Assembly: GCF_000411555.1 (NCBI RefSeq)
Contig: NZ_KE150486.1
Location: 806,001 to 870,000 of the forward strand
Source of the DNA: Atopobium sp. oral taxon 199 str. F0494
GTDB taxonomy: Bacteria > Actinomycetota > Coriobacteriia > Coriobacteriales > Atopobiaceae
DNA length: 64,000 bases
Reading direction: 5' to 3'
The notes under the pieces were generated by a model. It did not search any database and was not told where the DNA came from. It saw only the letters and a program-made list of their open reading frames with translations. Within the stretch, counting starts at the first letter, position 1. Each line of letters begins with the position of its first letter. The translations under genes and the position numbers were made by a program. Positions 2,249-33,290 of this stretch are shown here, piece after piece.

Positions 2249-3493
2249 ATGCGTAAAATCAAAACCATCTTGGTAGGACAATCCGGCGGCCCAACTGCTG
2301 CCATCAACGCATCGCTTGCGGGTGTCATACGCACTGCATATAGTCATAATCTTCGTATTCTTGGCATGCGCAACGGCATCCAAGGTTTTCTTGAAGGCCG
2401 TGTGGCTGATCTTACCCAAGCCCTTAACCTTGCTTCCTCCCCCAATACAGCCGAGCAAAACTTCAGGCTGTTGAGAAAAACACCTTCAAGTTGGCTTGGA
2501 AGCTGTCGTTTTAAGTTGCCTAAACCTGATGAAAACCCTTCCTTCTACCAGCGCATTACCATGCGCATGAATGAGCTTGGAATAGACGCCATTCTCTACA
2601 TCGGTGGCAATGACTCCATGGACACCACCGATAAGCTTTCTCGCTACTTTGCAAATACAGGCATTGACGTGCCGGTTGTTGGCATTCCCAAAACCATCGA
2701 TAACGACCTTGAAGGTACCGACCACACACCTGGTTTCGGAAGTGCTGCACGCTTTGTAGCAACCGTGACCGCAGAGCTTACCTGCGACGGTGGTGTTTAC
2801 GACATAAAAAACGTTACCTTCATTGAAGCCATGGGCCGAGAAGCCGGCTGGCTCACCGCTGCCGGAGCACTTGCAGGCGATATCTGCGGAACCGCCCCGG
2901 ACTTTGTACTTTTACCGGAAGTCCCCCTTGATGAAGAAGTTCTTCTCGCCCGCATCAAAGCACGCCTTGCCGAGAAGAACAACGTAGTGATTGTGGTCAG
3001 CGAAGGTGTACATCGTGCAGACGGAAGTTTCCTGTTTGACGCGGGCTCTATTGCAACCGACACTTTCGGACACCTTGCAGCACAGTCCGGAACGGCAGCA
3101 TATCTGGCACAGCTTGCTAAGGCGCGACTGGGCGTAAAATCCCGTGGCATTGAGCTCAACACGCTGCAGCGCTGTGCGTCGCATGCGGCGAGCAAAGTTG
3201 ATCTGGACGAGGCTGAAGCGTTGGGAACCGCCGGGGTTGTCGCTTCTCTCCAGGAAGAAACAGGTGTTATGGTGGGCATTCATCGCCTCTCCAGCAAGCC
3301 TTACGCCACAGAGATTCGCACTGTTCCGGTTGCTAACGTAGCAAATAAAGTAAAACTTATACCTGCAATAATGATTTCAGATGACGGCTTTAACGTAACC
3401 GATGAAGCGCTCCGCTACCTGCGCCCCTTGGTAGCCGCAGCAGAGGAGCCAATTCTTGGGGACGGACTTCCTCGGTTTCTTGACGCGCTGTAA
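2249..3493 (+). CDS. pfp: Pyrophosphate-dependent 6-phosphofructokinase, copy 1
   Basis: Reversibly phosphorylates fructose 6-phosphate with PPi. 414 residues. Motifs: N-terminal VGQSGGPTAAINASLAG phosphoryl-donor loop, GGNDSMDTTDKL where Asp replaces the Gly of ATP-dependent enzymes, GIPKTIDNDLEGTDHTPGFG with the Lys and Asp typical of PPi enzymes, and MGREAGWLTAA. The ribosome-binding site is oddly placed: AAGGAG at 2228-2233 is 15 nt before this ATG and 2 nt before another ATG at 2236 that opens a six-codon frame ending across this start. A paralog follows at 3968. No ATP-type phosphofructokinase 1 is seen in the window. Confidence 0.93.
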   Translation: MRKIKTILVGQSGGPTAAINASLAGVIRTAYSHNLRILGMRNGIQGFLEGRVADLTQALNLASSPNTAEQNFRLLRKTPSSWLGSCRFKLPKPDENPSFYQRITMRMNELGIDAILYIGGNDSMDTTDKLSRYFANTGIDVPVVGIPKTIDNDLEGTDHTPGFGSAARFVATVTAELTCDGGVYDIKNVTFIEAMGREAGWLTAAGALAGDICGTAPDFVLLPEVPLDEEVLLARIKARLAEKNNVVIVVSEGVHRADGSFLFDAGSIATDTFGHLAAQSGTAAYLAQLAKARLGVKSRGIELNTLQRCASHAASKVDLDEAEALGTAGVVASLQEETGVMVGIHRLSSKPYATEIRTVPVANVANKVKLIPAIMISDDGFNVTDEALRYLRPLVAAAEEPILGDGLPRFLDAL

Positions 3494-3540
3494 TGGCAGT
3501 CTCACAAAGTGGCGCTTTCATTTCCAAAAGCACGTGGAAC

Positions 3541-3660
3541 TCCAAAAAAGTGCGTGAGTTGTGATATAAAAGCTCCTAATTTAGGCATCAGTTGTGATAA
3601 ATCCCCCAAAAACTTCATGAGTTGTGACATTTTTTATCACAACTGATGCACTTTTTTGGA
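3541..3660. repeat. Inverted-repeat intergenic element, diverged copy 1
   Basis: TCCAAAAAAGTGC at 3541 is mirrored by GCACTTTTTTGGA ending at 3660. Inside are three direct copies of AGTTGTGA spaced about 30-33 bp apart and one inverted copy TCACAACT. It is the same family as 5366-5488 and 28114-28236 but with several substitutions, for example ctaatttagg in place of ctaaaaaagg. A second, weaker inverted pair lies outside it (TTCCAAAAGCACG at about 3522 and CGCACTCTTTGGAA at about 3665), giving a nested structure. No transposase is nearby. Confidence 0.85.
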
Positions 3661-3967
3661 AACGCGCACTCTTTGGAAACGTGTAGTCAAGCATCCAAAG
3701 GTACATTGTAGTAGCGACCTCATAGGATGACGACCTTGTATAGCAGTACTCTCGTATAGTAACGCCCTTGGTTAGACCAACAGTATCTACCGCTCGGCTG
3801 GAATTACCTATTGTGAACGGTATGGCTACGTACTCATTTAGAATAAGGATTCATGTGCCACGTGTCTTCCGTATAGTTATTTCTCGTGTGTCATTTCGAC
3901 CATTGTTTTTCGTTCGGCGCTCCACATTTCTGTTTTCAACTGTCAGTTTCCAAACACAGGGAGTTCC
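3661..3967. other. Intergenic region upstream of second pfp
   Basis: 307 bp without a credible gene. A short plus-strand open frame crossing it (3768-3995) has no ribosome-binding site and no recognisable protein features. It presumably carries the promoter of the second phosphofructokinase; several TATAGT/TAGAAT-like boxes occur (for example near 3757 and 3839) but none has a convincing partner. The gene's ribosome-binding site GGGAG lies just before ATG 3968. Confidence 0.5.
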
Positions 3968-5239
3968 ATGTGCACAATTAAGAAAGTGCTTGTAGGCCAA
4001 TCAGGCGGACCAACGGCAGTGATTAATGCTTCACTCGCAGGTGTTATCAGACAGGCACATGAGCACGGCCTTGAGATCATCGGAATGCGAAACGGTATCG
4101 AAGGCTTTCTGGAAGGCCGCACTGCCAACTTGACCGACCTGTTTCACCCCGCACGCAACCACCACACCTATGGCAAACAAGCCGTTGAACTTCTCGCCCG
4201 AACTCCTTCAAGCTTTCTCGGAAGCTGTCGCTACAAACTCCCCGATTATGAGAAAGACCTGCCTTTCTATCAACACCTAGCACACAGCCTTGCCTCACTG
4301 GACATTGACGGCATTTTGTACATCGGCGGCAATGACTCAATGGATACCGTCGAGAAGATTTCAGCGTATTTTGCAGCGAATCACACCGACATTCCTGTTA
4401 TCGGCATTCCTAAAACCATCGACAATGACCTTGAAGGCACTGACCACACGCCCGGATTCGGAAGCGCCGCAAGATACATTGCCACCGTTGTGCAGGAACT
4501 AGCTCGAGACGCTGAAGTTTACGGTAAACCAAGTATCACCATCATCGAAACAATGGGTCGTGACGCAGGCTGGCTGGGCGCCGCTTCCGCCCTTGCTCGC
4601 GAGAAGAACGAACAGGCTCCGGACATCATCCTGCTCCCCGAGGTGGCATTTGACGAAGAAAGGCTTATCAGCAAAATCGGAGCGCTTTTTGAATGCAAAA
4701 AGAGCATCATCATAGTGGCAAGCGAAGGCGTGCGGAGGCCTAACGGCTCGACACTTTTAGCCAAAAGCAAAGTCAGAATGGACGCCTTCGGACATCTTGC
4801 AGACCAGTCAGGCAATGCGCTGTACCTTGCAGAACTTTGCCAGAAACATTTTGACTGTAAGATCCGCGGCATCAATTTGAACTCTTTACAGCGTTGCGCC
4901 ATTCATGCAGCAAGCGAAACCGATTTGCGCGAGGCATGGCAGCTGGGAGCCGCAGGAGTGGACGCACTTCTCGCCGGCAAAACCGCCTGTATGGTGGGGT
5001 TACAAAGGGTCAGCGATACCCCCTACCAAACGGAGATTCATTGTGTCGCTGTTGCTGAAATTGCCAACAAAGTCAAGCATGTACCTGCAGATATGATTTC
5101 AAACGATGGTTGTTGGGTAACTGAAAAAGCGCTTACATATCTGCGGCCCCTGATTTCTAACGGGAACCATGAAGCAGAGTCTCAAGAAGATGGGCTGCCT
5201 GTCTTCATTCCAAAGCTGAGCCAAAACAATGGGTTTTGA
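3968..5239 (+). CDS. pfp: Pyrophosphate-dependent 6-phosphofructokinase, copy 2
   Basis: 423 residues, clearly paralogous to the protein at 2249 over its whole length. Shared motifs: VGQSGGPTAVINASLAGVI, GMRNGIEGFLEGR, GGNDSMDTVEKI, IPKTIDNDLEGTDHTPGFG, MGRDAGWLGAAS. The Asp/Lys signature again indicates PPi as phosphoryl donor. The C-terminal tail EAESQEDGLPVFIPKLSQNNGF is slightly longer than in copy 1. Its own upstream region and the repeat element between the two genes suggest separate transcription. Whether both are glycolytic enzymes or one is specialised cannot be told from sequence. Confidence 0.93.
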   Translation: MCTIKKVLVGQSGGPTAVINASLAGVIRQAHEHGLEIIGMRNGIEGFLEGRTANLTDLFHPARNHHTYGKQAVELLARTPSSFLGSCRYKLPDYEKDLPFYQHLAHSLASLDIDGILYIGGNDSMDTVEKISAYFAANHTDIPVIGIPKTIDNDLEGTDHTPGFGSAARYIATVVQELARDAEVYGKPSITIIETMGRDAGWLGAASALAREKNEQAPDIILLPEVAFDEERLISKIGALFECKKSIIIVASEGVRRPNGSTLLAKSKVRMDAFGHLADQSGNALYLAELCQKHFDCKIRGINLNSLQRCAIHAASETDLREAWQLGAAGVDALLAGKTACMVGLQRVSDTPYQTEIHCVAVAEIANKVKHVPADMISNDGCWVTEKALTYLRPLISNGNHEAESQEDGLPVFIPKLSQNNGF

Positions 5240-5325: not shown

Positions 5326-5365
5326 AGAAGGTCTTGGCTGTTTTCGCTTCCAAAAGCGCATGCGA

Positions 5366-5488
5366 TTCCAAAAAAGTGCGTGAGTTGTGATATGAAAACT
5401 CCTAAAAAAGGCATCAGTTGTGATAAATCCCCTAAAAATGCCATGAGTTGTGAAGTATTTTTATCACAACTGTGGCACTTTTTTGGAA
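5366..5488. repeat. Inverted-repeat intergenic element, copy 2
   Basis: 123 bp bounded by TTCCAAAAAAGTGC (5366-5379) and its exact reverse complement ending at 5488. Internally AGTTGTGA occurs three times directly (about 5383, 5415, 5445) and once inverted (TCACAACT), so the whole can fold as a long hairpin. It differs from the copy at 28114-28236 at only two positions. It lies between convergent pfp and murB. Function unknown; a small non-autonomous mobile element or a structured intergenic repeat are the obvious options. Confidence 0.9.
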
Positions 5489-6603: not shown

Positions 6604-8793
6604 TTACTTGTTCCTCTTTCTAAGGTAGATACCTGTACCAAGAAGAGCAATAGCTCCTGCGCTTAAAGGCACTACTGTACCCAAGACACCAGCGTCTCCT
6701 GTATAAGGGACCTTCTTAGAAGGCTTTTTAGGCTTAGGTGTCTCCGTATTGGTGATGGTAAAGCCTGTGGCAGCATCACCTGTCACTTCTGCAGTGTAGT
6801 TGGGAACATCGTCTTCTTTGACGGTGTAGACAATCTCATGTCCGTCTGCAGCGTACTTGTCAAGACCAGAGAAGCTACCTTGCCAGTTGCCTGCTTCATC
6901 AAGCGTTACGGTCTTTCCGGTATCGGTATCGTCTGCGAGCAGATGCACTGTTACAGGTCCTGCCTTAGGTCCGACCCACTCTTTCTTGACAGGGACATTG
7001 ACTTTCTCAGTGTTGGTATTGGTGATGGTAAAGCCTGTGGCAGCATCACCTGTCACTTCTGCAGTGTAGTTGGGAACATCGTCTTCTTTGACGGTGTAGA
7101 CAATCTCTGTTCCATCAGCCTTGTACTTGCGAAGATTGTCGAACTGTCCCTTCCAACCGTTGGACTCATCAAGAGTGAGCGTTTTGCCGGTATCGGTACC
7201 GTCTGCGAGCAGATGCACTGTTACAGGTCCTGCCTTAGGTCCGACCCAGGTCTTCTTAACGCAAACCGAAATTTTAATGGGCTTGTTGGTAATGGTCTTA
7301 AGAGCACCTCCTGCAGGAGTTACCTCAAGGGTGTACTCATCGCTTCCAAGCTCATAGCCCAAGGGAGCCTTCTTCTCCTTGACCTTGTAGGTACCTTGCA
7401 CAAGAACACCTGAAGTTACTGTTCCGTCTGCTCCTGTCGTCAGCTCAAAGGTAGAACCGTCAGGAGCGGTTACCGTAAATACGGCATTTTTCAAGGGTGT
7501 GACGCCATCTTCGTCAACTTTGGTAAGTTTAATCTTGCTGGCAAGGTCACCACCAGCTGTTCCTCCATTGTCCTGAGTAGCATATGAAGCCGTTATTTCT
7601 TTTGATTCTTCACGAGATGTAAGCTTTATTTTATTGCGAATCGTTGTACCCGGCTTATATGTTGTGGTATAGGCAAGCTCATACTGTGAACCGGCAACAT
7701 CTCCCAAATTGAGTGTAAAGGATTTTTTGTCAGGACTTAAGGTAAGCTTTCCGCTTATGTCTATATTTTCAAGAACCTGCGTAGCTTGACCTTCATCGTT
7801 CAAGACAACCTTATTAAGCCTAAAGGAGCCCGGTATATAGGTTTCATCACCGCTTAGTGAGTCTGTAACGACTGCATTATGGAGGTTTGCCTTTTTGTAA
7901 TTGAACCGTGCGTACCATATTACCTGGTCAGCACCATTAATGCGTTCTCCCCATTTTCCAAGGAGTTCATCGCTTGGAATACCCTTTTTAGTCGGCGTAA
8001 GATCCGTCGATATGGCCTTCCCATTAACAGTCACAGTAAAAGTATTTGGCTTATTGTCTTGTATTTTTTGCTTATTGAACAGGGCGGACATGTACAGTGT
8101 GCCGTGCACATTATATTTATTCTCAATCTTATCATTAAACGTAACTCTTACACTGCCCCCTGCATTATCAGGTCCGGGTGTAACTTTTGCGCGTGCAATC
8201 ACATTTCCGTCAGAATCCGTTAGATCAAATTCAGGAGCGGAGTAATTAGGGGGAAACTTCAGGTTGTCAGGAAGGGTAATATCGAAGTAATCACCTTTAT
8301 GCAACACCGTAGAGCTATCTTTAACCTTCCAGTCCATTGCCAAATAAAACGACCAGTTTTTGTCCAGCTCTGTAACAGGATTTCCCTTTGGCGCCTCAAT
8401 CTGAAAACGCGTGATATCAACATCAACGACTTGAGGAGCTGTAGGAGCACGCAGAAGTGATACAGGGGCAATAGGATTATCTAAGGAGGTATCACTAGCG
8501 CTTACTTCAGATAAAGGACCTGCCCTTGTACCATTGGTCTTTTGTTCTTCATTCTCATCAGATACTTGCTGCTCTGAAGGAATGGTCTGCTCGTCTTCAG
8601 TAGCAGCTTCGGCTTGCTCTTCTTGAGCCTCTTGATCTTTTGCCTTAGAGCTACTTTGAGTTTGCTCGGTGGTTAGCTGAGGGGTATCACGCGTAGACGT
8701 AATTTCATCAGCAAAAGCGGCAAAAGCACCTCCCGGAACCATAAGGCTCACAGCAAGCAGTACTCCCAAGAAGTTACAAAACTTCTTTTTCAT
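6604..8793 (-). CDS. LPXTG-type surface protein with SpaA/CnaB domains
   Basis: About 729 residues. Order: signal peptide (MKKKFCNFLGVLLAVSLMV...), a Ser/Thr/Glu/Gln-rich spacer, a collagen-binding/SdrD-like adhesion region (about 120-400), a SpaA prealbumin-like domain beginning KIKLTKVDEDGVTPLKNAVF, two near-identical 90-residue CnaB-like repeats (KTWVGPKAGPVTVHLLADG... and KEWVGPKAGPVTVHLLADD...), then sorting motif VPYTGD, a hydrophobic segment and KRNK. VPYTG is a variant of LPXTG; it should be covalently anchored by a sortase, though none is in the window. The spacing of Lys, Glu and Asn in the CnaB domains fits intramolecular isopeptide bonds. Start chosen at the methionine before the signal peptide, 12 codons inside the longest frame. 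Likely an adhesin or pilus-like subunit. Confidence 0.9.
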   Translation of the reverse strand: MKKKFCNFLGVLLAVSLMVPGGAFAAFADEITSTRDTPQLTTEQTQSSSKAKDQEAQEEQAEAATEDEQTIPSEQQVSDENEEQKTNGTRAGPLSEVSASDTSLDNPIAPVSLLRAPTAPQVVDVDITRFQIEAPKGNPVTELDKNWSFYLAMDWKVKDSSTVLHKGDYFDITLPDNLKFPPNYSAPEFDLTDSDGNVIARAKVTPGPDNAGGSVRVTFNDKIENKYNVHGTLYMSALFNKQKIQDNKPNTFTVTVNGKAISTDLTPTKKGIPSDELLGKWGERINGADQVIWYARFNYKKANLHNAVVTDSLSGDETYIPGSFRLNKVVLNDEGQATQVLENIDISGKLTLSPDKKSFTLNLGDVAGSQYELAYTTTYKPGTTIRNKIKLTSREESKEITASYATQDNGGTAGGDLASKIKLTKVDEDGVTPLKNAVFTVTAPDGSTFELTTGADGTVTSGVLVQGTYKVKEKKAPLGYELGSDEYTLEVTPAGGALKTITNKPIKISVCVKKTWVGPKAGPVTVHLLADGTDTGKTLTLDESNGWKGQFDNLRKYKADGTEIVYTVKEDDVPNYTAEVTGDAATGFTITNTNTEKVNVPVKKEWVGPKAGPVTVHLLADDTDTGKTVTLDEAGNWQGSFSGLDKYAADGHEIVYTVKEDDVPNYTAEVTGDAATGFTITNTETPKPKKPSKKVPYTGDAGVLGTVVPLSAGAIALLGTGIYLRKRNK
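6746..7249 (-). repeat. 270-bp in-frame repeat in the surface protein gene
   Basis: Two tandem copies with a period of 270 bp (90 codons). The block 6746-6837 is identical over 92 bp to 7016-7107, and 6911-6979 is nearly identical to 7181-7249. Identity at the DNA level, including synonymous sites, indicates recent duplication or gene conversion. Recombination could change the number of stalk repeats. Confidence 0.9.
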
Positions 8794-8910
8794 GGTGCAT
8801 CTTATCCTTTCTTTTTGACTACATAACAAAAATTAACACACCTACAGATAACCTTTCTATATCACTGACCATAGCTTGCATTACCGTAAGTGGCAGAGGA
8901 CTAAATACAT

Positions 8911-26193: not shown

Positions 26194-26353
26194 ATGACCT
26201 GTGCAGTTTATCACAGGTTCACGCTTGCGCGCGCGTCATTATCAAACGGGCGGTATACTTTCATCGAAAACAAATTTTTGCACGCCCTCACCTGCAACCA
26301 ACAATCGACCTTCAACTGATGGTCGACCCTCAACTGACGGGAGTCTATCTCAC

Positions 26354-27913
26354 ATGGCACTTCACTTGGCGGGACTTATTTCATACTTAACCGAGAAGAA
26401 CCTTCTCGCTCGAACCTATTGCTGCGAAAACGCCGAGGCGATAGACGTAAACGGCGTTGATCACGATTCCCGTATTGTTGAGCCGGGGCACTTATTTGTA
26501 TGCAAAGGGGTCTCGTTCAAACCGACATTTCTGACATCCGCCCTTGAAACTGGCGCTGTAGCGTATCTTTGTGCAGAGTCTCATGCCGCTGAGCTCGCTC
26601 AAAAAGAGCCTCATGTACCGGCCCTTATCGCGACCGATGCTAATTTGCGCCGTGCAATGGCCGAAGCTGCGGCATACGTCACCGGACATCCCGACCGCGA
26701 CCTCACTATGATTGGCATCACAGGAACGAAGGGCAAGTCAACCACCGCCTACATGCTGCGCGCCATTCTTGACGGCGATACTCCTTATGAAAAGACCGCC
26801 ATTATGGGCTCCATTGAAGTCTTTGACGGCATTGAGCGCGGTATGCCAAACAACACCACGCCGGAAGCTCCTGAACTCTGGAGGCACCTTGCCAACGCAA
26901 AGCGCTCAGGCCTCGCCTACATGGATATGGAAGTCTCCAGCCAGGCGCTTAAATATGATCGAACCTATGGCCTGAGCTTGGATATTGCCGTCTTTCTCAA
27001 CATCGGCCGCGACCATATCTCCCCTGTTGAGCATCCCACCTTTGAAGACTACTTCGAGAGCAAGATGAAGATATTCGACATGGCGCAAACCGCTGTTGTC
27101 AATATGGATACCGACCATTACGAGGATGTTATCGCTTCCGTCCGCGCCGCTCACGCGCGCAATCCCCAGCACTGCCAGCGCATATGCACGTTTTCCGCCA
27201 CCAATCCTCAGGCGGACGTTTGGGCAGACGACATTTCGTCCGAGTACGGCGTCGTTTCCTTCCGCGCTCACACGCCTGAGTGGACCGGCTATCTTTCCAT
27301 TCCCATGCCCGGCCTCTTCAACGTTGATAACGCGCTTGCGGCCATCGCCGTTGCGAGCCTGCTCGGATTTTCCGGCGAGAAGCTCCAGTATCCCTTACTC
27401 AATACGCATGTGCCAGGTCGCATGGAGCTCATCCCCACCAAAGACCGCAAGGTTATGGCACTCGTTGACTACGCGCACAACCGCCTTTCCTATCAGAAGC
27501 TTTTCTCGTCATCGTCAAAAGAGTTTCCCAATTACAGCCGCTATATCGTTACGGGGACTCCCGGCGGCAAAGCGCAGGAGCGGCGCCGGGACCTTCCGGA
27601 AGAGGGTGCCAAGTGGGCTGACCACCTCATTTACACGGCCGAGGATCCCGCCTTTGAGGATCCGGCGGATATCTGCGCGGAAATGGCCGCAGCTACGCCA
27701 AAGGGCGCCTCATACGAGATTATCCCTGACCGAGAAGAAGCCATTCGTCAGGCCGTTCGCCTCGCTTATGCGGATAAGCGTCCGAGCATCGTGTATCTTC
27801 TCGCTAAAGGCGATGAGGACTTCCAGCATGTAAGGGGCAGAGACGTCCCCTGGAAAACCGATGCTGCAGCGTTCAAAGACGCCGTGCGCGACTATGAGGC
27901 GGGCAGGCTGTAA
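26354..27913 (+). CDS. murE: UDP-N-acetylmuramyl-tripeptide synthetase
   Basis: Adds the third amino acid to UDP-MurNAc-L-Ala-D-Glu. About 519 residues. Visible: uridine-binding VNGVDHDSRIVEPGHLFVCKG, P-loop GITGTKGKSTTAYM, NNTTPEAPELWRHL, DMEVSSQALKYDRTYGL, NIGRDHISPVEHPT and ALVDYAHN. The usual diaminopimelate motif DNPR is absent; the aligned stretch reads EDPAFEDPADI, closer to L-lysine-adding enzymes. This suggests Lys or another diamino acid at position 3. ATG 26354 is chosen at the conserved N-terminus; upstream lies an 18-bp duplication (about 26308-26345). A CGAGAAG/CTTCTCG inverted pair sits inside codons 14-18. Confidence 0.93.
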   Translation: MALHLAGLISYLTEKNLLARTYCCENAEAIDVNGVDHDSRIVEPGHLFVCKGVSFKPTFLTSALETGAVAYLCAESHAAELAQKEPHVPALIATDANLRRAMAEAAAYVTGHPDRDLTMIGITGTKGKSTTAYMLRAILDGDTPYEKTAIMGSIEVFDGIERGMPNNTTPEAPELWRHLANAKRSGLAYMDMEVSSQALKYDRTYGLSLDIAVFLNIGRDHISPVEHPTFEDYFESKMKIFDMAQTAVVNMDTDHYEDVIASVRAAHARNPQHCQRICTFSATNPQADVWADDISSEYGVVSFRAHTPEWTGYLSIPMPGLFNVDNALAAIAVASLLGFSGEKLQYPLLNTHVPGRMELIPTKDRKVMALVDYAHNRLSYQKLFSSSSKEFPNYSRYIVTGTPGGKAQERRRDLPEEGAKWADHLIYTAEDPAFEDPADICAEMAAATPKGASYEIIPDREEAIRQAVRLAYADKRPSIVYLLAKGDEDFQHVRGRDVPWKTDAAAFKDAVRDYEAGRL

Positions 27914-28113: not shown

Positions 28114-28236
28114 TTCCAAAAAAGTGCATGAGTTGTGATATGAAAACTCCTAAAAAAGGCATCAGTTGTGATAAATCCCCTAAAAATGCCATGAGTTATG
28201 AAGTATTTTTATCACAACTGTGGCACTTTTTTGGAA
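28114..28236. repeat. Inverted-repeat intergenic element, copy 3
   Basis: 123 bp bounded by TTCCAAAAAAGTGC (28114-28127) and its reverse complement ending at 28236. It differs from the element at 5366-5488 at only two positions (G to A at 28128 and in the third AGTTGTGA copy). It lies between convergent murE and yebC. An open frame running through it encodes repeated (M/I)SCD units only because of the internal repeats and is not judged a gene. Confidence 0.9.
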
Positions 28237-28310
28237 TTACCGTCCGCGCGTACTCTAAGAAACGCGTTCACGCATGTTTTGGAGACATAGCCGTGCATAA
28301 CAAAAAAGTA

Positions 28311-28343
28311 AAGCCCGAGAAGTACAGAGAACTTCTCGGGCTT
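28311..28343 (-). terminator. Terminator built from an inverted CGAGAAG pair
   Basis: AAGCCCGAGAAGT and its exact reverse complement ACTTCTCGGGCTT flank a short loop, a 13-bp stem. A-rich sequence on the left (CAAAAAAGTAAA) gives a T-rich tail on the minus strand, so it should end the yebC transcript. It may also act weakly on the plus strand. Confidence 0.85.
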
Positions 28344-28400
28344 TATACACGAAGTCAAGACGCCTAAAGAAAGCGAACTTCTCGCCAGAACTCGCTTTTA

Positions 28401-28500
28401 TGTTGTAGGCCTTGCTTTTGTACCACAAGCCTTGCTTTTGCGCTACCGGCATTGCCTTCGTCCCGTAAGCCTTGCTTTCACAGCACGGGCCTTGCCTTAC
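28401..28500. repeat. 20-bp tandem repeat, 5 units, beginning at the yebC stop codon
   Basis: Five consecutive units of exactly 20 bp (28401, 28421, 28441, 28461, 28481) sharing GGCCTTGCTTTTG-like cores. Read on the minus strand the array starts with the TAA stop of yebC and becomes part of its 3' untranslated region, about 60 bp before the terminator. Confidence 0.88.
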
Positions 28501-29297
28501 TCGTCCTCTTCCAGAGCGGCGGCAATCTCATCGGTAACGTTCATGGTGCTGTAAACGTTCTGAACGTCATCAAGCTCGTCAAGCTTGTCCAGCAGGCGCT
28601 GAACCTTCTTGGCATCAGAAACGGACACGTCGGTGGGGGTAGTGGGAACCATAGTGAGCTCGGAGCCCTTGACCTCAATGCCCTGAGCCTCGAGACCCTT
28701 CTGGACATCCTGCATCTTGTCATAGGCAGTCCAGACAATCCACTGCTCGCCGGCGTCTTCGTAATCCTCGCCACCGGCCTCAGCAACGGCCATCATGAAC
28801 TCGTCCTCATCGGTAGCGTTATCGCGATCGGCAACTTTTTTATCATCGGACACGATAACCTTGTCCACTGCAAGCGAGCCGCGACGCTCAAACTGAAAGG
28901 CCACGGAACCCGCCGTACCCAGATTGCCGCCCGAGTGTGTAAAAGCGGAACGGACATCGGCAGCAGTACGATTCTTATTGTCGGTCAGGCAATCAACATA
29001 CACTGCGATACCCGCGGGACCATAGCCCTCGTAGACAATCTCCTCGTAAACGGCCGCGTCGGCGCCGGCGCCAAACGCCTTGTCGATAGCAGCTTTGATC
29101 TTTGCGTTTGGCATGGAAACCATGCGGGCGCGAGCGACAGCAGCGGAAAGAGTGGCGTTGTTGTCCGGGTTGGGATCGCCGCCCATCTTCGCGGCGACGG
29201 TGATATTGCGGGAAAGCTTGGAGAACAGCGACGAACGCTTGGCATCGATAGCTGCCTTTTTATGCTTCGTTGTTGCCCATTTAGAGTGTCCAGACAT
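28497..29297 (-). CDS. yebC: YebC/PmpR-family protein
   Basis: About 266 residues. N-terminal SGHSKWATTKHKKAAIDAKR and the following ARMVSMPNAKIKAAIDKAFG are the family hallmarks; YEEIVYEGYGPAGIAVYVDCLTDNKNRTAADVRSAF follows, and the C-terminus is acidic (AALEEDE). YebC proteins act as transcriptional regulators in some species and as ribosome-associated factors relieving stalling in others; which applies here is unknown. ATG 29297 has AAAGGAGAG upstream. Confidence 0.95.
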   Translation of the reverse strand: MSGHSKWATTKHKKAAIDAKRSSLFSKLSRNITVAAKMGGDPNPDNNATLSAAVARARMVSMPNAKIKAAIDKAFGAGADAAVYEEIVYEGYGPAGIAVYVDCLTDNKNRTAADVRSAFTHSGGNLGTAGSVAFQFERRGSLAVDKVIVSDDKKVADRDNATDEDEFMMAVAEAGGEDYEDAGEQWIVWTAYDKMQDVQKGLEAQGIEVKGSELTMVPTTPTDVSVSDAKKVQRLLDKLDELDDVQNVYSTMNVTDEIAAALEEDE

Positions 29298-29428
29298 TTG
29301 CACTCTCCTTTTGTTTACATATAGAGTCAATAGCCTTTATACATTACCCTAAATCACGTTGCGAGAAAACCCTCGGCGCGGGAAACATAACATTTTCTGC
29401 ACAGCCGCCCGCAGCTCTGCTCGCACAC

Positions 29429-32028: not shown

Positions 32029-32146
32029 GTTTTGCACTCCTCTCATAACAGGTACCGGATAGCTAAAAGCAACTTCAGACCCTCACCCGACCGGTACGAT
32101 TTAACCTGTCCTCATACTAAGCCCGAACACCCCTTGAAACAAGCTT

Positions 32147-32318
32147 CACTCTGCGCGGGACTTCTCACTCTGCAACGAAGCTTCTCACCCCGCAGCGGGC
32201 TCTTTCTCTCACTCTGCACGGGACTTCTCGCTCTGCAACGAAGCTTCTCACCCCGCAGCGGGCTCTTTCTCTCACCCCGCAGCGGGCTCTTTCTCTCACT
32301 CTGCAGCGGGGTCTCTCA
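32147..32318. repeat. 63-bp/24-bp nested tandem repeat after the ROK kinase
   Basis: A 63-bp unit starts at 32147 and repeats at 32210 with very few changes; a 24-bp sub-unit (GCTGCGGGGTGAGAGAAAG on the minus strand) repeats again at 32273 and 32297. The sub-unit resembles the last codons and stop of the adjacent kinase gene (GCCGCGGAGTGAGAGA), as if the gene's 3' end had been copied downstream. Confidence 0.85.
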
Positions 32319-33290
32319 CTCCGCGGCGAGCACTTCTTCACCAAAGCGTTCTTTGCGCAGGCGAAGCGCCTCATATGCGCAGCCATACATTGCCGCCTGA
32401 TTGCCAAGACTTGCCGCTTCGATACGCACGGGGCGGCTGACGCGCAGCGCGTACTCCTCAAAGCGGGCGCGCAGCTCGGTAGCAAAGGTTGCAAATGAAC
32501 CGGCGACTCCTCCGCCAATCAGATACATGGACGGGTCGACCACACATGAAACCTGCGCCATGGCGCGCGCCAGATACGAGCACATCTTATCGATAGCAAG
32601 CGTCGCGCACTCATCACCCGCGGCATGCGCACGGAACACCGAAAGAGTATCTGTCTCGTGCTCAACACTCACAGGCGTCACGCCGCGCCTCTCGCACTCC
32701 TCGAGGTACAGGCGAACAATGCCCTTCGCAGACGCGTACTGCTCAAGGCAACCATGACGACCACAGCCGCACGTTTTAGGCTCTTCGGGTTCAACCGTAA
32801 TGTGACCAATCTCGCCGCCCGCTCCAAACGCGCCTGCCACCAGCTTGCCGTTACAAACTACCCCCGCGCCGACGCCCGTGCCAATAGCAATGAGTACGAA
32901 GGAGGGCGCACCCACGGCAACGCCCGCCCACGCCTCACCAAGAGCGGCGGCATTGGCGTCGTTGACAAAGGCCACCGTGGCGTTAGGCAGAGCCGCACTG
33001 ATGGCCTGCACCAATTCTTCGGGATTCAGCTGCACGTTGGCGAGAAAACCGACGGTGCCGTCATCGGCAACCGGGCCGGGAATATCCAATCCGCAGGCGA
33101 TAACGTCTTCCGGCCTGCCGTCTCGGGACGCGACAACCTCTTCAAGCGCGTGGCAAACGGTGCGGTACGCCTCCCGCGAGATAAGCGCAGGCGTTGGAAC
33201 CTTCTCTTCCGTCAGCAACTCTCCGTCAGGCGTAAACAGACCGATTTTGATGCTGGTGCCACCGATGTCAATGCCGAATACGTACTGCAT
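32316..33290 (-). CDS. ROK-family sugar kinase, probable glucokinase
   Basis: About 324 residues. N-terminal phosphate loop FGIDIGGTSIKIGLF, sugar-binding VNDANAAALGEAWAG with catalytic Asp, IGTGVGAGVVCNGKLV, and the ROK zinc motif CGCGRHGCLEQYASA. HITVEPE before the zinc motif (GEIGHITV) supports a glucokinase/ROK kinase rather than a ROK repressor, as no N-terminal HTH exists. ATG 33290 is preceded by GGGGGAG. It closely follows the Ddl-like gene. Confidence 0.93.
   Translation of the reverse strand: MQYVFGIDIGGTSIKIGLFTPDGELLTEEKVPTPALISREAYRTVCHALEEVVASRDGRPEDVIACGLDIPGPVADDGTVGFLANVQLNPEELVQAISAALPNATVAFVNDANAAALGEAWAGVAVGAPSFVLIAIGTGVGAGVVCNGKLVAGAFGAGGEIGHITVEPEEPKTCGCGRHGCLEQYASAKGIVRLYLEECERRGVTPVSVEHETDTLSVFRAHAAGDECATLAIDKMCSYLARAMAQVSCVVDPSMYLIGGGVAGSFATFATELRARFEEYALRVSRPVRIEAASLGNQAAMYGCAYEALRLRKERFGEEVLAAE

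Follow-up and report, generated by a model that had tools for sequence, protein, structure and literature searches.

The repeat in the window

The window, the 64-kb stretch of DNA analysed here, holds three intergenic copies of a repeat without coding capacity. Between the copies at 5366-5488 and 28114-28236 there are two differences in 123 positions, just as the preliminary description of this 123-bp repeat had reported, and the diverged copy that it placed at 3541-3660 is present, although its limits are really 3540-3661. Two copies, those at 5366 and 28114, do lie between convergent genes. The copies are listed below, together with the modules and hairpins of the copy at 5366-5488.

3540-3661, plus strand: diverged copy of 122 nt, 89% identical to the main type, between the tandem pfk-type genes 2249-3493 and 3968-5239
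5348-5365, plus strand: degenerate extra half-module, TTCCAAAAGCGCATGCGA, abutting the element and ending in CGA
5366-5488, plus strand: main-type copy, 123 bp, between convergent genes ending at 5239 (plus) and 5520 (minus)
5366-5392, plus strand: module A, TTCCAAAAAAGTGC-GTG-AGTTGTGATA, left terminal inverted repeat and box
5399-5425, plus strand: module B, CTCCTAAAAAAGGC-ATC-AGTTGTGATA
5429-5455, plus strand: module C, CCCCTAAAAATGCC-ATG-AGTTGTGAAG
5462-5488, minus strand: module D, inverted, TTCCAAAAAAGTGC-CAC-AGTTGTGATA, right terminal inverted repeat and box
5439-5484, plus strand: hairpin C:D, intrinsic-terminator-like, with a 14-bp stem, a 10-nt loop and -17 kcal/mol, then CTTTTTT
5432-5480, minus strand: hairpin D:C', with a 15-bp stem and about -17.7 kcal/mol, then TTTTT
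28114-28236, plus strand: main-type copy with 2 differences from 5366-5488, between the convergent genes 26201-27913 (plus) and 28497-29330 (minus)

The element is laid out as three direct modules and one inverted module of ~27 bp, each combining an A-tract with AGTTGTGA (module consensus TTCCwAAAAAGTGC-nnn-AGTTGTGATA; box spacings 33 and 30 bp). This arrangement, claimed for every copy in the window, is complete at 5366-5488, where AGTTGTGA boxes start at 5383, 5416 and 5446 on the plus strand and at 5464 on the minus strand, but at 28114-28236 the third box reads AGTTATGA. Similarly, the 14-bp TTCCAAAAAAGTGC terminal inverted repeats found at both ends of most copies are perfect at 5366 and 28114, but not, as had been thought, at 3540, where the left end CTCC reduces the match to 13/14. 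Within the window, AGTTGTGA boxes occur 15 times against 1.75 expected, a count reached in 0/100 shuffles.

When folded as RNA, the element beats all shuffles on both strands (z -6.4 to -8.2). The C:D hairpin is missed by a terminator scan with a loop limit of 8, its loop being 10 nt long. On both strands, 34/34 copies (17 sites in two strains) retain a hairpin with a U-run after it, with weaker stems in this strain's copy 8 (the copy at 28114, which has one stem mismatch) and in copies 10, 12, 16 and 17.

Other repeats were also seen in the window. GCGAGAAG occurs 47 times on the two strands (for example at 28309-28345 and 28372-28386), in some cases inside inverted-pair terminator stems, and is a candidate for a recurrent terminator or an uptake-type motif, although by a Markov count it does not stand out strongly. 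Direct repeats at 6746-7260, with a spacing of 270 bp and 87-92% identity, lie in a minus-strand ORF of 741 aa (6604-8829) whose product is apparently a repeat-containing protein, and a tandem repeat with a 63-bp unit at 32146-32339 is made of TCACTCTGC-like pieces.

Copies in the genome and between strains

The number of copies given in the preliminary description is correct for the window, but a whole-genome search (1.67 Mb, two contigs) found 17, in both orientations. Twelve of these are 96-100% identical, three have diverged to 83-89%, and the remaining two, copies 13 and 14, have a common seven-base change near the left end and sit in a 176-nt inverted duplicate. Apart from this duplicate and 19 bp common to copies 1 and 7, the flanks of the copies are unrelated, which rules out a larger ordinary duplication. 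A composite element bounded by copies 13 and 14 was likewise ruled out, as the 10 kb between them contains ordinary-looking genes, one of which we take to encode PEP carboxylase. No match indicated carriage of the element by a phage or plasmid. One copy (L015:1501-1623) has its terminal arms swapped against the interior relative to the main type, as if the inverted repeats had recombined and flipped the middle. Where simple gene calls allowed a context to be assigned, roughly half of the copies stand between tandem genes, at least six between convergent ones and one between divergent ones; in tandem contexts the plus strand of the element runs along transcription in 7/8 cases, a weak bias (one-sided p 0.035).

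Another genome of the species (G069) likewise has 17 copies, all of them orthologous to the 17 here, so that no site is occupied in one strain and empty in the other. By contrast, blastn against 59 further genomes from the genus, family and order, three of them from the same genus, found zero copies. In the closest other species (G003), no element is present at any of the three window sites: the orthologous intergenic regions are much shorter at the 3540 and 5366 sites and hold unrelated sequence at the 28114 site. Since G003 also lacks the low-complexity DNA that flanks the element, its sequence gives no clean empty-site junction.

The near-identity of copies had been attributed to recent spread or to gene conversion. 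Between the two strains, the elements differ at 17/2091 positions (0.8%) and their 220-bp flanks at 214/7178 (3.0%; Fisher p 7e-10). Since strains with 3% diverged flanks have all 17 sites in common, recent spread is not supported. Judged from these two genomes, the comparison shows the element to have spread to many intergenic sites before the strains diverged, with no movement between them since. Gene conversion gains support from variants common to distant copies: this strain's copies 10 and 12, 650 kb apart, have in common a GTTATG variant absent from their orthologues, and copy 3 of G069 carries both linked changes of the copy-15 type. These few sites indicate that dispersed copies probably exchange sequence by gene conversion; the near-identity as a whole reflects gene conversion, constraint or both, which are not separated here.

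Convergent arrays in related genera

A three-box pattern scan over 85,000 species, with AGTTGTG as the search term, had among its listed matches the same layout in Atopobiaceae UBA1367 (G146). There, 21 arrays were found in the 715 kb sampled (about one per 34 kb), and in all 21 direct 25-bp modules (GGAAAGGAAAAGCCCGAGTTGTGCG) meet inverted ones at a single centre, none being divergent. Same-strand spacings are exactly 42 bp in 144/157 cases although the spacers differ, and in the first nine arrays spacers are no more alike within than between arrays. At the centre, 17/21 arrays pair one T-type with one A-type module, and two of the other four centres are broken by N. RNA pairing of mirrored modules was considered and set aside, as a permutation test gave no clear support for it (exact-match p 0.02; mean identity p 0.48). 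With no clear covariation, a long RNA hairpin is not supported as the selected form in UBA1367, which leaves open phased protein binding.

In a Reindeer MAG of the same genus (G161), AGTTGTG units repeat every 52 bp, their orientation alternating. The intergenic palindromic arrays of this genome (L231-L233) belong to two families, one of GCCGGTAAGTTGGAGAAAC..ATCACAACTTTGCGGCA with the 52-bp period and one made of CGGACTTnGACGGCCGGGGCCGnCCGAGTCCG units. In another genus (G095), modules converge at spacings of 30 and 41 bp, in arrays judged by eye. A de novo array search found none in the G011 and G003 samples, and only one weak GC-rich k-mer in the G155 sample. Further palindromic arrays, of TTTGTAGATGTGAACTC..GAGTTCACATCTACAAA in G102 (L289:9700-10100) and of TTTTGTGCACGTGTAC..GTACACGTGCACAAAA in G095 (L283:8300-8700), repeat about every 104 bp. 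As a separate observation, a RAYT-like protein of G146 that scores slightly below the cut-off (NF047646; L236, C4:107990-108070) has GCACGAGAGGGACGGGGGTTTTCGTGC repeats on one side, similar in style to GTACAAAAGGGACTGTCCC in G095.

The element has the layout of these convergent arrays, with A-tract and AGTTGTG modules (in UBA1367, A-tract and GAGTTGTG), several direct (here three) and then inverted (here one), about one centre. It differs from the UBA1367 arrays in that these have a variable number of modules, a strict 42-bp period and diverged spacers, and no fixed 123-bp cassette; its own spacings of 33 and 30 bp give no constant period. Common descent of the AGTTGTG modules between genera is plausible rather than shown, because the scan itself used AGTTGTG.

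These data raise a possible though doubtful alternative, in which the element belongs, as a short form, to a class of arrays acting at the DNA level, its modules being protein-binding sites placed near whole helical turns about one centre. The role might then be in chromosome organisation, supercoiling control or insulation, as is thought for protein-binding BIMEs. The single-centre arrays of UBA1367, with their constant spacing, unlike spacers and T-type plus A-type centres, speak for phased binding, as do spacings of 52 bp in G161, 30 and 41 bp in G095 and 33 and 30 bp in the element, all near multiples of 10.5. Against it, the binding protein is putative, spacings of 33 and 30 bp approximate three turns only loosely, the element spread as one unit with a fixed 3+1 layout, in contrast to the variable arrays, the G161 arrays alternate rather than converge, and homology between genera consists mainly of the AGTTGTG box, for which the scan had searched. 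It is therefore only tentatively that we suggest an Atopobiaceae array class, defined by A-tract/AGTTGTG modules, an asymmetric centre and a putative protein, that would organise the chromosome or insulate genes and of which the 123-bp element would be the minimal mobile form. A literature search found no description of an array class of this kind.

Origin, function and likeness to known repeats

The suggestion that the element is MITE-like or a mobile palindromic repeat agrees with its dispersal in both orientations, its sharp ends and its absence from related species, but neither a target-site duplication nor a partner element was found. None of the 17 copies is bordered by a direct repeat of at least 2 bp. 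CGA adjoins the left end in 8/17 copies (background 1.6%, p 7e-11), with no counterpart at the right end; it may have belonged to the ancestral element or reflect a target preference on one side, and hints at past site-preferring insertion. Genome-wide, no longer or autonomous element has the same ends, and a search for unpaired ends within 1 mismatch returned only one isolated 1-mismatch match, on C2. Searched family by family, the Y1 (RAYT), rve, DDE_Tnp_1 and ISL3 transposases are absent from the genome, so that no transposase with matching ends was found among these four families. At the transposase loci of the sister strain, boxes are absent from the Y1 locus and from one rve locus, and two further rve loci contain a single isolated box each.

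These results make it improbable that the element is a classical MITE moved by cut-and-paste through a DDE transposase whose activity in the species continues or ended very recently. Such an origin would account for the 14-bp terminal inverted repeats and for non-coding, intergenic, multi-copy and near-identical elements, but not for 0/17 target-site duplications, the lack of a solo or longer element with these ends, the absence of rve, DDE_Tnp_1 and ISL3, sister-strain loci with no module motifs beyond single chance boxes, and sites that are all fixed in the two strains. Even less probable is a structured RNA, trans-acting or mRNA-stabilising, in place of a terminator: the hairpin is very stable on both strands, but both strands fold about equally well, no Rfam family was matched beyond sub-threshold miRNA-like hairpins, and the mirrored modules of UBA1367 lack clear covariation. 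Least probable of all is a RAYT-driven repeat of the REP/BIME type, which would fit a palindromic, intergenic and 3'-biased element whose one-sided flank preference without target duplication resembles Y1 (IS200/IS605) targeting, but is contradicted by a genome with no Y1 domain, by a UBA1367 RAYT flanked by a different repeat, GCACGAGAGGGACGGGG, and by the lack of a GTAG-type head.

The best reading, which we favour with modest confidence, is that of an old SPRITE/MITE-like dispersed intergenic repeat, fixed at 17 sites, now immobile and resembling a bidirectional terminator. The element would have arisen in or entered the lineage of the species after its split from the other sampled members of the genus, or have been lost from them. 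It would have spread by MITE-like copying through a trans-acting recombinase or transposase, since lost or not found, inserting without target duplication and favouring CGA on the left side only. Transcription from either side would yield an RNA in which modules C and D form a hairpin with a U-run after it, with A and B as alternative partners for D. Terminator geometry is present in all copies; given a C:D hairpin and U-run on either strand, each copy is expected to cause intrinsic termination in both directions, an activity that we infer, and all copies are compatible with a predicted role in RNA 3' ends. The exact periodicity of the arrays in related genera, which a terminator does not need, argues against a terminator, as do the weak orientation bias, the C:D mismatch in the 28114 copy and the less stable copies 10, 12, 16 and 17.

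Small dispersed repeats are known mainly from proteobacteria and streptococci, and a literature search found no paper on such repeats in Coriobacteriia. The element adds a Coriobacteriia family that is kept uniform, probably via gene conversion, without a visible mobiliser, and that has two-way terminator geometry at each site. Its possible link to the regular 42-bp convergent arrays of a related genus is also of interest, as their spacing suggests a testable function at the DNA level.

The element works like a SPRITE/MITE-type dispersed repeat and is a full member of none of the families compared. Like the bacterial MITEs Correia, RUP and ERIC, it is non-coding, multi-copy and intergenic, with terminal inverted repeats and a stable stem-loop (PMC10969869); membership fails because it has no target-site duplication and no partner insertion sequence was found. 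With REP/BIME repeats and their RAYTs it has in common palindromic intergenic repeats in direct and inverted orientation (PMC2817692), but it differs in its head-to-tail modules before the inversion, and membership fails because the enzyme and the head motif are missing, the element starting with TTCC, with CGA as left flank, rather than with GT(A/G)G. BOX of Streptococcus pneumoniae is likewise modular and intergenic and repeats one of its internal units in tandem, but combines distinct boxA, boxB and boxC as boxA-boxB(n)-boxC (PMC3049150), whereas the element repeats one module type (three direct) and then inverts it (one), a layout that excludes membership. SPRITE of the same species, like the element, is a small dispersed intergenic repeat that is commoner than expected between convergent genes; it consists of a single 18-bp duplex with a long T-rich tract (PMC3049150). 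Its origin and layout are unrelated to those of the element, which has four modules and U-runs on both strands, but the SPRITE-type arrangement of a long stem and then a U-rich tract is found in 34/34 copies, on both strands.
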